The translations under genes were made by a program, and so were the position numbers. Below are positions 50,936 through 58,660 of a stretch of DNA of 64,000 nucleotides, piece by piece. Source of the stretch: Flavobacterium sp. A45 (lineage in GTDB: Bacteria > Bacteroidota > Bacteroidia > Flavobacteriales > Flavobacteriaceae). The notes beneath the pieces are model-generated. The model did not search any database, was not told the origin of the DNA, and worked only from the letters and a program-made list of their open reading frames with translations. The DNA lies in NCBI RefSeq assembly GCF_002001005.1, contig NZ_MUNX01000070.1:48505-112504 (forward strand), read 5' to 3'. The stretch's first letter is position 1. Each line of letters opens with the position of its first letter.

Positions 50936-51030
50936 TTCCTAAATTATTTGAGTCACAAAGTTACAAAGTAAATTTACAATGGCAATCGGAAAATAAAAGG
51001 CAATCCGTTCAAATCTATGAGTTTTTTTTA

Positions 51031-51157
51031 CCGCAGATTCGCAGATTTTAATGTGGCTTATTATCGTGAATTAACCGCTTTCAGTGGAATTAACGCAATT
51101 TTTTTTCTAATTATAGTTACAAAATTCTTTTTTTAAATAAAATCTGCGAATCTGCGG
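51031..51157 (+). repeat. 127-bp inverted-repeat element, copy B
   Basis: The ends are CCGCAGATTCGCAGATTTTA and AAAATCTGCGAATCTGCGG; the interior contains GTGAATTAACCGCTTTCAGT. Same length and ends as copy A at 32409. It is flanked by TTA on the left and TAA on the right. Confidence 0.8.
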
Positions 51158-51295
51158 TAATTTTTAACTCATATAATTGCAACATCAATGACAGAATATT
51201 AACACCTATAATTACGACCTTTTTCCGATTTTAGCTATTTTTTTACAATATCTACAAAAATGATTGTCTTTATTCAAGATAATTTACGAAATCGT

Positions 51296-52285: not shown

Positions 52286-52305
52286 CACACCAATTAATAT
52301 CACTT

Positions 52306-52465
52306 GGGCGTGCCACCATAAAGAGAAGGGACTAATCACTGTAACGGTGATTCAGTCCCTTCTCTTTATGCTGTCGGGCCATCCACGCTACTTCGGTAGC
52401 TTGCTCCAAACGAAGTTCACTGAACTCCAATTAAAATAAAAGCTAAGTGAAGTAATCCCTCACGC
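52306..52465 (-). repeat. Dispersed structured element, copy 2 (inverted)
   Basis: On the minus strand: closing stem GCGTG (in GCGTGAGGGATTACTTC) pairs with CACGC near the end; then AGCTACCGAAGTAGCGTGGA and GGCCCGACAG; then a long hairpin CATAAAGAGAAGGGACT against AGTCCCTTCTCTTTATG, a perfect 17-bp stem. Between the GGGAT box and AAGCTACC it has an insert of about 50 bases with its own hairpin (GTTCAGTGAAC). The stems differ in sequence from copies 1 and 3 and are paired. Confidence 0.75.
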
Positions 52466-52637
52466 AGCATCAATGTTCCAAAAATATTTTTATTGCAAAT
52501 TATCCTGTGTAGGATTCTAATTATTATTTTCTACATTTGAAAAAAGGAAAACGTGATACTTATTACACAAAGCTATCATGATTAGGATGGATAAGTGTGA
52601 TTTTGTCAGGCATATATATAAGTTATAAGCTATTAAA

Positions 52638-52665
52638 ATGAACAACTACATATGAACAACTACAT
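52638..52665 (+). repeat. 14-bp tandem duplication at the start codon of cassette gene 1
   Basis: ATGAACAACTACAT occurs twice head to tail (52638-52651 and 52652-52665). The first ATG gives a five-residue frame ending in TGA; the second is the start of the 268-codon gene. Confidence 0.85.
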
Positions 52666-53458
52666 TCTAGACAAATTACGAGCCGATAGCATACATTTAC
52701 TTCATTTGTCCTCAAACGAAGAAAAAGTTCAGCATACTGGTTTAAGAGGACGACTTAGAGAACTTTTAATTGACAATATATTAACTCCCTGGCTACCTCC
52801 ATACGTTTTAAGTGGCACAGGGACAATTATTGAGGCTGAAAATTTGAAAAGAGAATCAACTCAAGATGACATTATTTTATTTGATAAGACATTAGCACCT
52901 CCAATATTAGGCTCACATAATTCCAAAGAAGGAATTTTTCTTTTTAATTCCGTTTTAGCAAGAATTGAAGTAAAGTCAACTGTAAATAGAGGATATATAA
53001 AAGATTTTTCTGCAACTTCTTTGGAAATTTCAAAATTAAAATTTACTGTCGGTCCTAATTTTAACGCAAATTATTTCGGAGCTTTTAATTTGTTCTTTGC
53101 GTTTAAAAGTGATGCTGACTTGGATAATAAAAATCCAAATTTTGAACTAAAGCGACTTGTAGAAGTAATGAAAGAGCTAAATATTGACCCACTTTCCGGC
53201 ATCATTTCAATGGTCTGCATTCTTGGTAAAGGTTTTTGGAAAATTGGAATGAAAACAGATGGTATAACAAGAACATGGCAAAAATTAAATTCCGATGAAG
53301 TAGCTGATCAAATCACTTGGTTCGTAGGATGTGTTTCAAATTCATGTTTTAATGCCCATATGCAAAGGCAAGGTAGAAATCCAGATAATAGTTTGGAATC
53401 TGGAATAGGAATGTATCTTGACCACCCATTCACAGATATTGATATTAACAGCTTATAA
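52652..53458 (+). CDS. DUF6602-like protein, possible PD-(D/E)XK nuclease (cassette gene 1)
   Basis: 268 residues, no signal peptide. HTGLRGRLRELLIDNILTPW near residue 27 and then SGTGTIIEAENLKRESTQDD, IILFDKT, and VLARIEVKST: the QDDIIL plus IEVKS pair is the D-(E)xK spacing of a restriction-like nuclease fold, and the layout resembles DUF6602 proteins, some of which occur near restriction or toxin genes. Activity is inferred, not shown. Its stop codon lies within the first attC core (AGCTTATAAC), as is common in integron cassettes. Confidence 0.62.
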   Translation: MNNYILDKLRADSIHLLHLSSNEEKVQHTGLRGRLRELLIDNILTPWLPPYVLSGTGTIIEAENLKRESTQDDIILFDKTLAPPILGSHNSKEGIFLFNSVLARIEVKSTVNRGYIKDFSATSLEISKLKFTVGPNFNANYFGAFNLFFAFKSDADLDNKNPNFELKRLVEVMKELNIDPLSGIISMVCILGKGFWKIGMKTDGITRTWQKLNSDEVADQITWFVGCVSNSCFNAHMQRQGRNPDNSLESGIGMYLDHPFTDIDINSL

Positions 53459-53583
53459 CAGCCACTACAACGGATTTGGGCATTTGGCTTAATGGAAAAT
53501 GGTCTTGTATTTGGAATATTTGGCTAATCCGAAAATAGGGCTTAATTTAATCCCAAACCCGCTGTAGTGCCAGAACGTTGGCA
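53453..53583 (+). repeat. attC-like site 1 (131 bp)
   Basis: R'' TTATAAC at 53453-53459 and the crossover core GTTGGCA at 53577-53583. Between them GCCACTACAACGGATTTGGG faces the complement of CCCAAACCCGCTGTAGTGCC, an imperfect stem with unpaired bases as in attC folding. The inner part holds ATTTGGCTTAAT and GGGCTTAATTTAAT. Confidence 0.75.
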
Positions 53584-53634
53584 GACAGCTTGAGAAAACG
53601 AAATGCAAAAAAAAATTAACTAAAAACATAAACT

Positions 53635-54153
53635 ATGTTAGAATTATTTTGGGGAATATTAAATACTGTAATTTTAATTTATTTTATAATTATCTGCTTC
53701 AAAGCAACAAAGATAATTCGTGATAATTTAGGAATATTGGCAACTCTTATTTTTGTTTTTGGTCTTTTGTCATTTATTGGAAAAACAAATGAAGAAAATA
53801 CTAAAAACAAAACTTTTAATTTACAAGAAGAAACTGAAAATATAGAGCGTCCTAAATTTAATGGAAATACTTATTTAAGAGAAAAAAAACTTGAAGATAA
53901 TTTAATGACAGATATTGATATTTCAATTTCATTTGGTGAAAATACAATTGAAAAAAAGCTGTTAAATGCAAATGTTTATAGAAATGGTTTTGTGAGTGGA
54001 ACTGATTGGAAAACTACTAACATAAATGTTTTTAAATTAGAGAATAATACATACAAATACAATGTAACAGGAACAGTTGATTGGAGAATTTTAGGAATAA
54101 AATTTTACACTGAATTGAAAGAATTTGATGGAAAAATTGAATTGAAAAAATAA
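53635..54153 (+). CDS. Unknown protein with N-terminal membrane helices (cassette gene 2)
   Basis: 172 residues, strikingly AT-rich codons. Two helices at residues 4-22 (FWGILNTVILIYFIIICF) and 34-50 (LGILATLIFVFGLLSF), then a soluble, beta-rich domain of about 115 residues with no family I recognise (NVTGTVDWRILGIKFYTELK near the end). It is probably anchored in the inner membrane. The cassette start lies 57 bases before the ATG, leaving room for its own promoter. Confidence 0.7.
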   Translation: MLELFWGILNTVILIYFIIICFKATKIIRDNLGILATLIFVFGLLSFIGKTNEENTKNKTFNLQEETENIERPKFNGNTYLREKKLEDNLMTDIDISISFGENTIEKKLLNANVYRNGFVSGTDWKTTNINVFKLENNTYKYNVTGTVDWRILGIKFYTELKEFDGKIELKK

Positions 54154-54161
54154 AGCCGATC

Positions 54162-54293
54162 TGCCAACACACGCTACAATCAATTTGGGGATTTGGCTTA
54201 ATTTGAAATTGGTTTTGTATTTGGAAGATTTGGCAAATCCGAAGATTGGGCTTAATATAGTCCCAAACCCGCTGTAGCCCCAAGACGTTGTGC
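54162..54293 (+). repeat. attC-like site 2 (132 bp)
   Basis: R'' TGCCAAC at 54162-54168 and core GTTGTGC at 54287-54293. GCTACAATCAATTTGGGG faces the complement of CCCAAACCCGCTGTAGC. About the same length as site 1 and closely related to it along the whole length (ATTTGGCTTAAT, TTGGGCTTAATATAGTCCCA). Confidence 0.75.
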
Positions 54294-54326
54294 GACATTA
54301 CCATAACAAATCTTAAACATTGATTC

Positions 54327-54923
54327 ATGAAGAAAATTCTATTTCTTTCCTTTTGCATGGTAATACTTAGTTCTTGCAACTTACCGTCTTATGTTTTCTA
54401 CAATCCCGGACAAACAACAGGTGTCGATTTCACCAACGGAAAATGGCTACTTAATGAGATAGATGCGCCGGCAGATTGCACAAAATATCTTAAAGAAACT
54501 TCAATACGTGACTTTAAGATTCTTCTCGGCGAAAGATTAAATTATGTGACCGATGTTTCTGGTTTACTTTTGACACAGAAAAAAATTCCTTTGAATCCAA
54601 GTAAGCAAATCATTGCAGACATTAAAAAAGGAACTAACTATGACTTTTTCATAAACATTAAAGCTACCCAAACAAGAAATGATTTTGGTTCAATCGATTT
54701 GACTCCACATAGAATGAGCAGAGAAGGCATGAACAGTAATGAAGTAACAATCGAAATCTACGATTTAAAAAATTCTCAAATTATTTACACTCAAAAAGTA
54801 ATAGCTTCTGTAGGAAAACCAAAAGATAACTCTGATGTTCATTTTTCTAAGCCTTCAAGAAGTTTAATAATTGGCGCATATAATAAACTAATAAGAGATA
54901 TTAAAAACAAGTCAATAAAGTAG
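54327..54923 (+). CDS. Lipoprotein of unknown function (cassette gene 3)
   Basis: 198 residues with a lipobox (FLSFCMVILSSCNLPS, Cys near residue 17). The rest is a single soluble domain (FKILLGERLNYVTDVSGLLL, YDFFINIKATQTRNDFGSID) reminiscent in arrangement, not in motif, of LpoB/CsgG-like outer-membrane lipoproteins; no family assigned. It follows attC site 2 by 33 bases and is followed by a truncated attC. Confidence 0.68.
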   Translation: MKKILFLSFCMVILSSCNLPSYVFYNPGQTTGVDFTNGKWLLNEIDAPADCTKYLKETSIRDFKILLGERLNYVTDVSGLLLTQKKIPLNPSKQIIADIKKGTNYDFFINIKATQTRNDFGSIDLTPHRMSREGMNSNEVTIEIYDLKNSQIIYTQKVIASVGKPKDNSDVHFSKPSRSLIIGAYNKLIRDIKNKSIK

Positions 54924-54930
54924 TAAAGCC

Positions 54931-54986
54931 GCTCAACACCTACTACAACGGATTTGGGCAATTGGCTTAATCGAAAGTTGGTTAAA
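54931..54986 (+). repeat. Truncated attC-like site 3
   Basis: GCTCAAC (54931-54937) then ACAACGGATTTGGGCAATTG and GCTTAATCGAAAGTTGG match the left half of sites 1 and 2. The right half and crossover core are missing after about 54986, so the array ends in a deletion and this cassette should not be excisable. Confidence 0.65.
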
Positions 54987-55213
54987 AGCAATATTTGTTT
55001 CTCCAAAAATCAATAATCAAACTCCCTTTAATAGAATTTCCCCACCACTCTATAAGAAACAACTCCCCCCTTTTAGCCCAATTCTGTAAATAAAATAATA
55101 AAACAATTCATAAATAACTTTTCATTAATTATCTCCGATGATTTTTGCCAATTATATACCAATTTTTATACGTGTTTTGTCTAAATTGCGACTAGAAACA
55201 AATTAGACAGGGT

Positions 55214-57890: not shown

Positions 57891-57923
57891 AACTTTGTCA
57901 AAGTTTGGAACTTTGACAAAGTT
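57891..57923. repeat. REP-like palindrome L1
   Basis: AACTTTGTCAAAGTT, 3 bases, AACTTTGACAAAGTT: a nested palindrome built on CTTTGTCAAAG, next to the transposase gene. Confidence 0.75.
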
Positions 57924-57969
57924 GGCTTTTCAACAACTATAATGTAATTCATCGGATCTTCCCTTTAGA

Positions 57970-58000
57970 TCTTTGTCAAAGTTTAGAACTTTGATAAAGA
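57970..58000. repeat. REP-like palindrome L2
   Basis: TCTTTGTCAAAGTTTAGAAC then TTTGATAAAGA: same family, one mismatch. Left flank of the transposase gene. Confidence 0.7.
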
Positions 58001-58043: not shown

Positions 58044-58660
58044 TCATTTCCAAAAATCAAAACTTTCAAATGGATTGTTATGACAAAAAATAAAATTATC
58101 TAAATCATTAAACAATTCTATTACTTCAGTTCGTTTTAAATTCGTTTTAGCATTAGATAAAATTGCCACATAAGAAGAGAATTTGTAGATTTTAAAGTCT
58201 ATTTTTAAATCTACAGGGTTCTGATGAACATAAAGAATTAAGTTTCTTAAATATTCTTCAGATTCAATTTTTTTCGTTTAAAAGGAGATTCTAATAATGC
58301 TCCATGTCTATTATACACTTTGTTATAAGACTGACTATAAGAACTTATGAACTTGCTTATTTGTTTACTAACCACATTCTGTATGGCATGCAAACCCTCA
58401 TTATTCTCTTTGTTCAATTTTAACTCATTTATTGCAAAAAGCAATAAGTCTTCTTTAGATTTTATTTTTATTACAAAATGAAAATGATTTGGCATCAAAC
58501 AATAGGCATAGATATCACAAACTGGAATTACATATTTTGAAAATTGTTTTAGAAAGAAAAGATAATTATCCGTGTTTTTAAAAATTTTCCCTCCATTAAT
58601 CCCACGATTATAGATATGATAATAGCAATCGGGTTCTAAAATTTGAATTCTTATATCCAT
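58044..58660 (-). pseudogene. REP-associated tyrosine transposase (Y1/HUH) with a -1 frameshift
   Basis: Frame 0 from 58660 gives 137 residues, with YYHIYNRGIN, the HUH motif MPNHFHFVI (H59, H61) and the nucleophile Tyr112 in SQSYNKVYN; it stops at 58247. The rest of the family (IESEEYLRNLILYVHQNPVD to a TGA at 58044) follows in the -1 frame. The switch point is the minus-strand heptamer A_AAA_AAA (58274-58268) in perfect slippery phase, so either a frameshift mutation or programmed -1 frameshifting. Together it makes about 205 residues, the usual RAYT length. REP palindromes flank both sides. Confidence 0.85.

Follow-up and report, generated by a model that had tools for sequence, protein, structure and literature searches.

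A small integrase-less cassette array in Flavobacterium sp. A45 and a predicted integron-type system with patchless integrases

In canonical integrons the integrase gene, intI, is divergent from the cassette array, and the R box has the consensus GTTRRRY / RYYYAAC. Here we describe a group of three gene cassettes in a 64,000 nucleotide (nt) stretch of the Flavobacterium sp. A45 genome (contig NZ_MUNX01000070.1, positions 48,505 to 112,504 of the forward strand). This whole stretch is referred to as the window, and its contig is C125 in the codes used for the contigs of this genome. The cassettes very probably form a small integrase-less array that belongs to an integron-type system. The likely integrase of this system is a tyrosine recombinase encoded elsewhere in the genome that is patchless, i.e. 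lacks the IntI-specific additional domain (the patch). Judged from sequence, the system would pass for an integron by the integron-type tests while departing from three canonical features, namely the patch, the R box and the divergent intI.

Published surveys pick integrases by the IntI domain (PMC2426708, PMC9668308) and look for sites with models that represent known attC (PMC9024848), at least in the passages of these papers drawn on here. In those passages intI was selected by its additional domain (PMC2426708), which is also a defining IntI trait in a paper that lists Bacteroidota among the integron-bearing phyla (PMC9668308). Excerpts of PMC9024848 report clusters of attC sites lacking integron integrases (CALIN) from two attC upwards and give only In0 as known before in Bacteroidetes. 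The new survey adds one complete integron, that of Salinibacter ruber M1, which belongs to the same phylum in the wide sense but is IntI-type; the present system does not appear in these excerpts. Recombination of attC prefers the bottom strand according to an extract of PMC8946536. A literature search by title and abstract opening, with preprints outside its scope and few subscription journals covered, found no description of such flavobacterial integrons.

The system described below resembled canonical integrons in its same-strand, mostly one-gene cassettes, its covarying attC palindromes of low conservation, insertion at GTT, an attI-like site beside the integrase and the occurrence of integrase-less arrays. 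Unlike in canonical integrons, the integrase gene pointed towards the array and was co-oriented with the cassettes, the R box read GTTR, and a 15-nt cassette arm carried a conserved A.C (top strand) / G.T (bottom strand) at position 11. Unlike canonical IntI, the array integrase was without the ~41-residue patch and had about 70 extra N-terminal residues.

The cassette array and its repeat family

The initial annotation of the window had claimed three same-strand genes, each followed by a repeat. All three open reading frames (ORFs) were found (Table 1), and the repeat was complete behind the first two; behind the third it was truncated, with about 50 bases left. The cassette starts were, as had been claimed, the reverse complement of the start of their own repeat at 10, 9 and 8 of 10 positions, respectively. 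An attI-like leader, absent from that annotation, precedes the first cassette. With two complete attC, one truncated attC and no integrase nearby, the window alone qualifies as a CALIN (at least two attC), and it departs from a plain CALIN by its retained leader. The claim that the array was without integrase held for the window and its contig, on which no integrase matches were found, but not for the genome, since the array of contig C81 lies behind an intact integrase gene. As single strands, the two attC sites of the window folded weakly (z -1.70, -0.75, 1.04 and 0.26), which does not amount to proof on its own, and an Rfam scan of the window gave no match.

At the site of the array, the two closest relatives sampled (86% identity; 61 genomes searched) had the same flanking genes and neither leader nor cassettes. 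Alignment with G349 stopped at 52382 and restarted at 55100; the corresponding stretch for the nearest relative, G324, is given in Table 1. The distance between the flanking genes was ~0.42 kb in G324, ~0.54 kb in G349 and ~0.3 kb in G305, and in the other loci fetched the right-hand gene was outside the stretch.

Table 1. Features of the window array and the intact integrase of the same genome. Positions are those of the window unless a contig is named. Own-flank match: agreement of the cassette start with the reverse complement of its own attC flank over 15 nt, position 11 excluded. Both complete attC belong to the 26-copy alignment from which the scores of covariance model R1 derive.
Feature	Position	Strand	Remarks
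Stretch without counterpart in G324	52297..55071	+	homology stops at 52296 and restarts at 55072
attI-like leader before cassette 1	52530..52621	+	likeness to the leader behind the intact C81 integrase
Promoter-like element TACATTTG, TAnnTTTG type	52532..52539	+	90 nt 5′ of cassette 1; predicted cassette promoter
Cassette 1 (GTT to the base preceding the next GTT)	52622..53576	+	own-flank match 14/14
Cassette 1 ORF, 268 amino acids (aa)	52652..53458	+	DUF6602 (PF20247), E 2.5e-14
Cassette 1 attC, complete	53457..53579	+	AAC-to-GTT core 123 nt; R1 140.3 bits
Cassette 2	53577..54286	+	own-flank match 11/14; 14/14 with a one-base bulge
Cassette 2 ORF, 172 aa	53635..54153	+	no Pfam match
Cassette 2 attC, complete	54166..54289	+	AAC-to-GTT core 124 nt; R1 132.9 bits
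Cassette 3, attC truncated	54287..54985	+	own-flank match 12/14
Cassette 3 ORF, 198 aa	54327..54923	+	no Pfam match
Cassette 3 attC, left part (~first 50 bases)	54935..54985	+	right arm missing; R1 39.7 bits
Intact integrase, 347 aa	C81 175876-176916 plus stop		first cassette begins 102 nt after the stop

In the whole genome the repeat was matched 41 times by BLAST and 44 times by the covariance model (E up to 0.001). The matches were mostly grouped on contigs C81, C73, C131, C82, C79, C134 and C125, and some copies were solitary or degenerate. The largest array was that on C81, directly behind the intact integrase. Comparison of 23 consecutive cassettes with their own flanks showed a mean match of 7.09 of the 10 positions after GTT, versus 3.23 in 506 wrong pairings, and none of 20,000 permutations equalled the observed sum. 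At position 11 the cassette start was A in 23/23; the base read from the reverse-complemented own flank was G in 15 cassettes, C in 6, T in one and A in one. In this notation A/G stands for an A.C pair in the top strand and a G.T pair in the bottom strand. Six of the flanks had one extra base at position 10; with this base bulged out they matched at 13 or 14 of 14 positions, all with A/G. When the bulge was allowed, 21 of the 23 cassettes fitted A/G at position 11. Of the 506 wrong pairings, 3 gained such a match through the bulge.

The same profile of own matches was obtained with a second detector, which used the stem arms alone and was independent of the signature (the 15-nt match with A/G at position 11). 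Among the 89 neighbouring pairs that it found, position 11 was A at the start in 82 and G in the reverse complement of the flank in 75; A/G was present in 69 of the pairs, and in 7 more with a one-base bulge (wrong pairings, 22/7832). Flanks with the extra base at position 10 keep A/G and the remainder of the 15-nt match, and mark a second class of cassette arms (6/23 in this genome, for example the cassette at 53577, and 7/89 others). Two checks had been named beforehand in the initial annotation: whether repeats occur without matching cassette-start bases, and whether cassettes are shuffled. The repeats do pair with their own cassette starts, and the genes between repeat copies differ.

The structure of attC was analysed on 121 distinct sites from 38 loci, with the ends fixed by the signature and the arms not used. 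Most were 122–128 nt long. AAC pairs with GTT, one left base then stands opposite five right bases, and positions 5–24 follow in register with 9–28. Watson-Crick pairing was 0.62–0.88 at 17 of the 20 stem positions (5–24) and involved as many as four pair types; with the partner slid, it was mostly 0.05–0.5. The exceptions were 18-22 (A.C in 69%), 9-13 (T.G in 48%) and 15-19 (0.51). The base pair adjoining AAC/GTT was A.C in 95%, and over positions 5–20 A.C on top (G.T on the bottom) filled 227 cells versus 86 for G.T on top. By this pairing, attC is an imperfect palindrome that is kept in structure and not in sequence, with arms that covary. The 15-nt start arm is complementary to the own attC flank, and therefore the outer stem would close in the circular cassette. 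In this circle form, i.e. with the own cassette start joined, the bottom strand was the stabler one in 120/124 (mean -30.5 versus -26.1 kcal/mol).

The R box sequence GTTRRRY was found at 15/245 cassette starts and at 6/89 in the arm-detected set. Since the two detectors found almost no sites in 20 classical IntI regions, the R-box contrast with classical attC rests on the consensus given at the outset. Loop inserts (such as GCTTCGCCTGTTCGC...GCTCGG) lengthened several attC of the Flavobacterium sp. A45 genome (L015, L016, L020, L026 and L027) to ~150 nt or longer, and Flavobacterium paronense (L075) carried very short attC of 61 nt alongside 124-nt ones within one array.

Of 245 cassettes, 211 had their longest ORF on the cassette strand and 12 on the opposite strand, and 22 had no ORF of at least 50 aa. 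The median share of the cassette taken up by the ORF was 0.86, and the ORF started at a median of 45 nt into the cassette. The proteins of 146 of these 211 same-strand ORFs, from this genome and named relatives, were scanned for domains. They matched 118 Pfam families, each with at most 4 members, including AIPR, GmrSD, EcoRI methylase, MerT, beta-lactamase-family, streptomycin adenylyltransferase and pterin-binding domains. With PADLOC, models from 64 families were matched, including those for AbiU and cyclase. The cassette domains included some of defence type and, in a few cases, of resistance type.

The patchless integrase and the arrays of relatives

Five Phage_integrase genes were found in the genome, of which the one on C81 directly precedes the largest array and two others are Xer-like in alignment. 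The initial annotation had suggested looking for intI elsewhere in the genome; this yielded the C81 integrase, which is however of a lineage without the IntI patch. Its residues R204, H294, R297, H320 and Y329, which we take to be the tyrosine recombinase catalytic set, were invariant in 15 aligned homologues. Against the integron-integrase model TIGR02249 it scored 211 bits in two separate stretches, below the cut-off of 265. An alignment of 118 proteins showed the KDR-HxLRH spacing to be 102 residues in 29/29 IntI and 60–65 in 66/67 array-bearing patchless integrases, the other being a fragment; it was 60–61 in 18/18 relatives without detected arrays and 66–68 in two Xer. The IntI-specific additional domain was thus absent from the array-bearing integrases. 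The remnant of an integrase, consisting of 40 C-terminal residues, was found on C73 in front of another leader.

XerA-type proteins are chromosome-dimer resolvases. Archaeal XerA and XerA-like recombinases (NF040815; PDB 4a8e and 5hxy) were the best-scoring solved relatives of the C81 integrase and had the same patchless catalytic region. Unlike XerA, the gene here heads a cassette array, and at 217 bits its product fell just under the curated NF040815 cut-off of 220 and so outside that family. The N-terminal SAM-like and catalytic domains also aligned with those of Vibrio IntI4 (PDB 2a3v), including the C-terminal SPxD-type end, but about 42 IntI4 residues (180–243 versus query 249–270) had no counterpart in the C81 integrase.

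A quick tree built from 75 proteins placed IntI in one starred clade and 44 patchless rows in another (Shimodaira–Hasegawa-like approximate likelihood ratio test, SH-aLRT, 90; not starred), with some array-bearing proteins outside the latter. A single clade of all 58 patchless Bacteroidota rows was compatible with the data (p value of the approximately unbiased test, p-AU, 0.55), on a tree with long outgroup branches. One clade of 40 array-bearing patchless integrases was rejected (p-AU 3.5e-89), because loci without detected arrays were interspersed. Recombinases 39–40% identical to the integrase were encoded on Bradyrhizobium and Mesorhizobium plasmids (L224 and L225), directly 5′ of IS91 family transposase genes, and lay near IntI in the tree on a long branch. 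Some of the proteins analysed are named 'site-specific tyrosine recombinase/integron integrase' by NCBI; the name itself is not new, since NCBI already uses it. A Flavo-1 RNA (RF01705, 55.2 bits; L014:3632-3709) was located directly upstream of the intact C81 integrase gene and was the sole match in an Rfam scan of three loci.

Arrays behind related integrases were examined in a main sample of the best 80 loci of a genome-collection scan, with 55–92% identity to the integrase, and in 40 further loci with 36–76% identity. The 80 loci came from Flavobacterium, other Weeksellaceae, Flavobacteriaceae, Pedobacter, Pelobium and metagenome-assembled genomes (MAGs) labelled Chitinophaga. Additionally, they included Saprospiraceae, Haliscomenobacteraceae, Cytophagales and one Ignavibacteria MAG; no cassette was detected at the Ignavibacteria locus, and the Cytophagales contig was too short to judge for cassettes. 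A matched control was made with the 53 of the 80 loci that had at least 1000 nt downstream (312 kb downstream and 296 kb upstream). At a threshold of at least 13/14, it gave 140 signature pairs downstream and co-oriented with the integrase (42 loci), 2 upstream and none downstream on the opposite strand. The corresponding counts were 83, 0 and 0 at 14/14, and 163, 6 and 9 at 12/14. At least one A/G pair was present in 22 of the 40 further loci, and none of the 40 had pairs in the upstream 1 kb or less.

Taking all loci with at least 1000 nt downstream, 68/88 showed the signature at 12/14 or better, and in 50 of them it began within 40–125 nt after the integrase match. On the G400 chromosome, which is complete, 14 regularly spaced cassettes followed the integrase, beginning 106 nt from it. 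G339 had 13 signature cassettes and numerous model matches across ~45 kb on the strand of the integrase; the closest model match lay ~1.2 kb from the integrase, and the signature cassettes began 11 kb from it. A Chryseobacterium plasmid carried a 66% identical integrase followed by same-strand genes.

Leaders similar to that of the window were recognised by eye before first cassettes on C81, C125, C73 (two), C82, C79, C71 and C43; the likeness was weaker for C79, C82 and C43. Alignment of 50 leaders from relatives gave the consensus TATATACAA directly 5′ of GTT, and many of these leaders contained an inverted repeat specific to their genome. The sequence TAnnTTTG, which we take to be the Bacteroidota -7 type promoter motif, was present in 26 of the 50 (mean 2.6 and maximum 7 after shuffling), and 23 of its 27 occurrences were 86–92 nt ahead of the first cassette. 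The leader may be read as a predicted attI plus a cassette promoter.

Cassette exchange and alternative explanations

One cassette was common to F. denitrificans and Pelobium manganitolerans (L048 versus L096), with 93.3% identity over 1441 nt. The matching block opens with the first base of this cassette and ends at the GTT closing its attC, so that both ends are at GTT, and the cassette lies behind attI in one genome and behind an attC in the other. Other cassettes were shared, in their bodies, by Paenimyroides and G059 (99.4%), Flavobacterium sp. 245 and G142 (97.3%), and G076 and G111 (99.3%). In these three the matching block overran the cassette start by 24–240 nt, through similar attC or leader sequence. 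Near-identical copies of cassettes were present within the arrays of L046, L075 and L156. The claim of an integron-type array in Bacteroidota was accordingly borne out by the cassette-specific arms, covarying attC arms, attI-like leader, cassette exchange and array-free site.

The C81-type integrase would presumably be the enzyme that moves the cassettes. It is predicted to cut them out in circular form where attC sites have folded, and to insert them into the attI just behind its own gene. The bottom strand of attC would be the substrate, as suggested by the bottom-strand folds, which were stabler on average, and the TAnnTTTG element of the leader would drive the cassettes. The window array may have lost its integrase or never had one; the C81 copy would act on it in trans.

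The arrays might instead have been made by a classical patch-bearing IntI that was recently lost, with the C81 recombinase an unrelated Xer-type bystander. In principle cassettes could pass between systems, and classical IntI (TIGR02249 over its cut-off) was found in 84/296 sampled genomes of the phylum, in other classes; yet at E 1e-50 the same model matched neither this genome nor any that was sampled from its genus, family or order. In 50 loci, and also on a complete chromosome, the first cassette follows the patchless integrase at a fixed distance, and GTTRRRY at only 15/245 cassette starts fits a classical origin poorly. This explanation is very unlikely. The position of the arrays, tied to a dedicated integrase, likewise tells against p-dif modules exchanged by the chromosomal XerC/XerD, in which the palindromes would be degenerate dif sites. 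It is true that the integrase is closest in sequence to XerA-like proteins, by both the NF040815 score and the solved structures, and that the genome has other Phage_integrase-family genes, two of them Xer-like. However, dif sites are ~28 bp, whereas the sites here are mostly hairpins of 114–130 nt with covarying arms and a cassette-specific arm, which makes this an extremely unlikely account.

It is hardly credible that the palindromes are dispersed repeats, such as repetitive extragenic palindromes (REP), miniature inverted-repeat transposable elements (MITE) or elements derived from insertion sequences (IS), lying behind genes by chance and without cassette mobility. Such repeats would explain the 44 matches in one genome and the copies that are solitary or degenerate, but not the 15-nt arms that are specific to each cassette, the orientation and position tied to the integrase, or an exchange unit ending at GTT. 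Other genera, moreover, have repeats of the same architecture but different sequence.

A number of results weigh against an integron-type system worked by the patchless integrase. The system is widespread, with the R1 attC found in 72/121 genomes of the genus (E 1e-8), in line with the search of Flavobacterium genomes that the initial annotation had proposed, and the integrase in 43/121 (E 1e-90), with both in 30; co-occurrence was not significant (R1 in 30/43 with and 42/78 without integrase, p 0.12), so many arrays would be orphans or be served by other enzymes. In the wider phylum the integrase family, stand-alone relatives included, was present in 73/296 sampled genomes (E 1e-60). Twenty of the 88 loci with enough sequence showed no signature, and nine relatives (42–50% identity, at least 3 kb downstream) had no A/G signature and look like stand-alone recombinases. 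Chance pairs exist at 12/14 (6 upstream in 296 kb; 5/53 loci). Position 11 is not universal, as A/G was read straight in 15/23 cassettes of this genome and in 69/89 arm-detected pairs. The attC cores folded only weakly better as bottom strand (82/121 sites, 31/38 loci; 13/26 in this genome), and the asymmetry of the circle folds stems in part from the choice of cassettes with A/G at position 11, a combination that already favours the bottom strand. For the integrase, AlphaFold gave a poor model (predicted local distance difference test, pLDDT, 71.8; predicted template modelling score, pTM, 0.49), good enough only to list XerA and IntI4 as the nearest folds. Finally, recombination by the system is something that we infer from sequence.

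Other elements were also noted in the window. A 29-nt palindromic unit (CTTTGTCAAAGTTTGGAACTTTGACAAAG) is present in two copies with 49 nt between them at 57893-57999, and a perfect 23-nt inverted repeat with arms separated by 87 nt at 51028-51160. An ORF on the minus strand (58247-58660) resembles, by eye, a REP-associated (Y1) transposase.

Implications for integron biology

Taken further, we consider it probable that the arrays belong to a second great integron lineage, with XerA-like integrases that never had the patch and a 15-nt arm with a built-in strand mark, and that this would be a main gene-capture system of Bacteroidota, overlooked until now. If this is true, the second lineage would show the patch to be unnecessary for integron recombination, and it would possibly be older than, or independent of, the IntI integrons. 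If the system works as predicted, the need for the IntI patch becomes directly testable, detection tools would require a second integrase model and a second attC model, and many flavobacterial accessory genes would move by a defined route.

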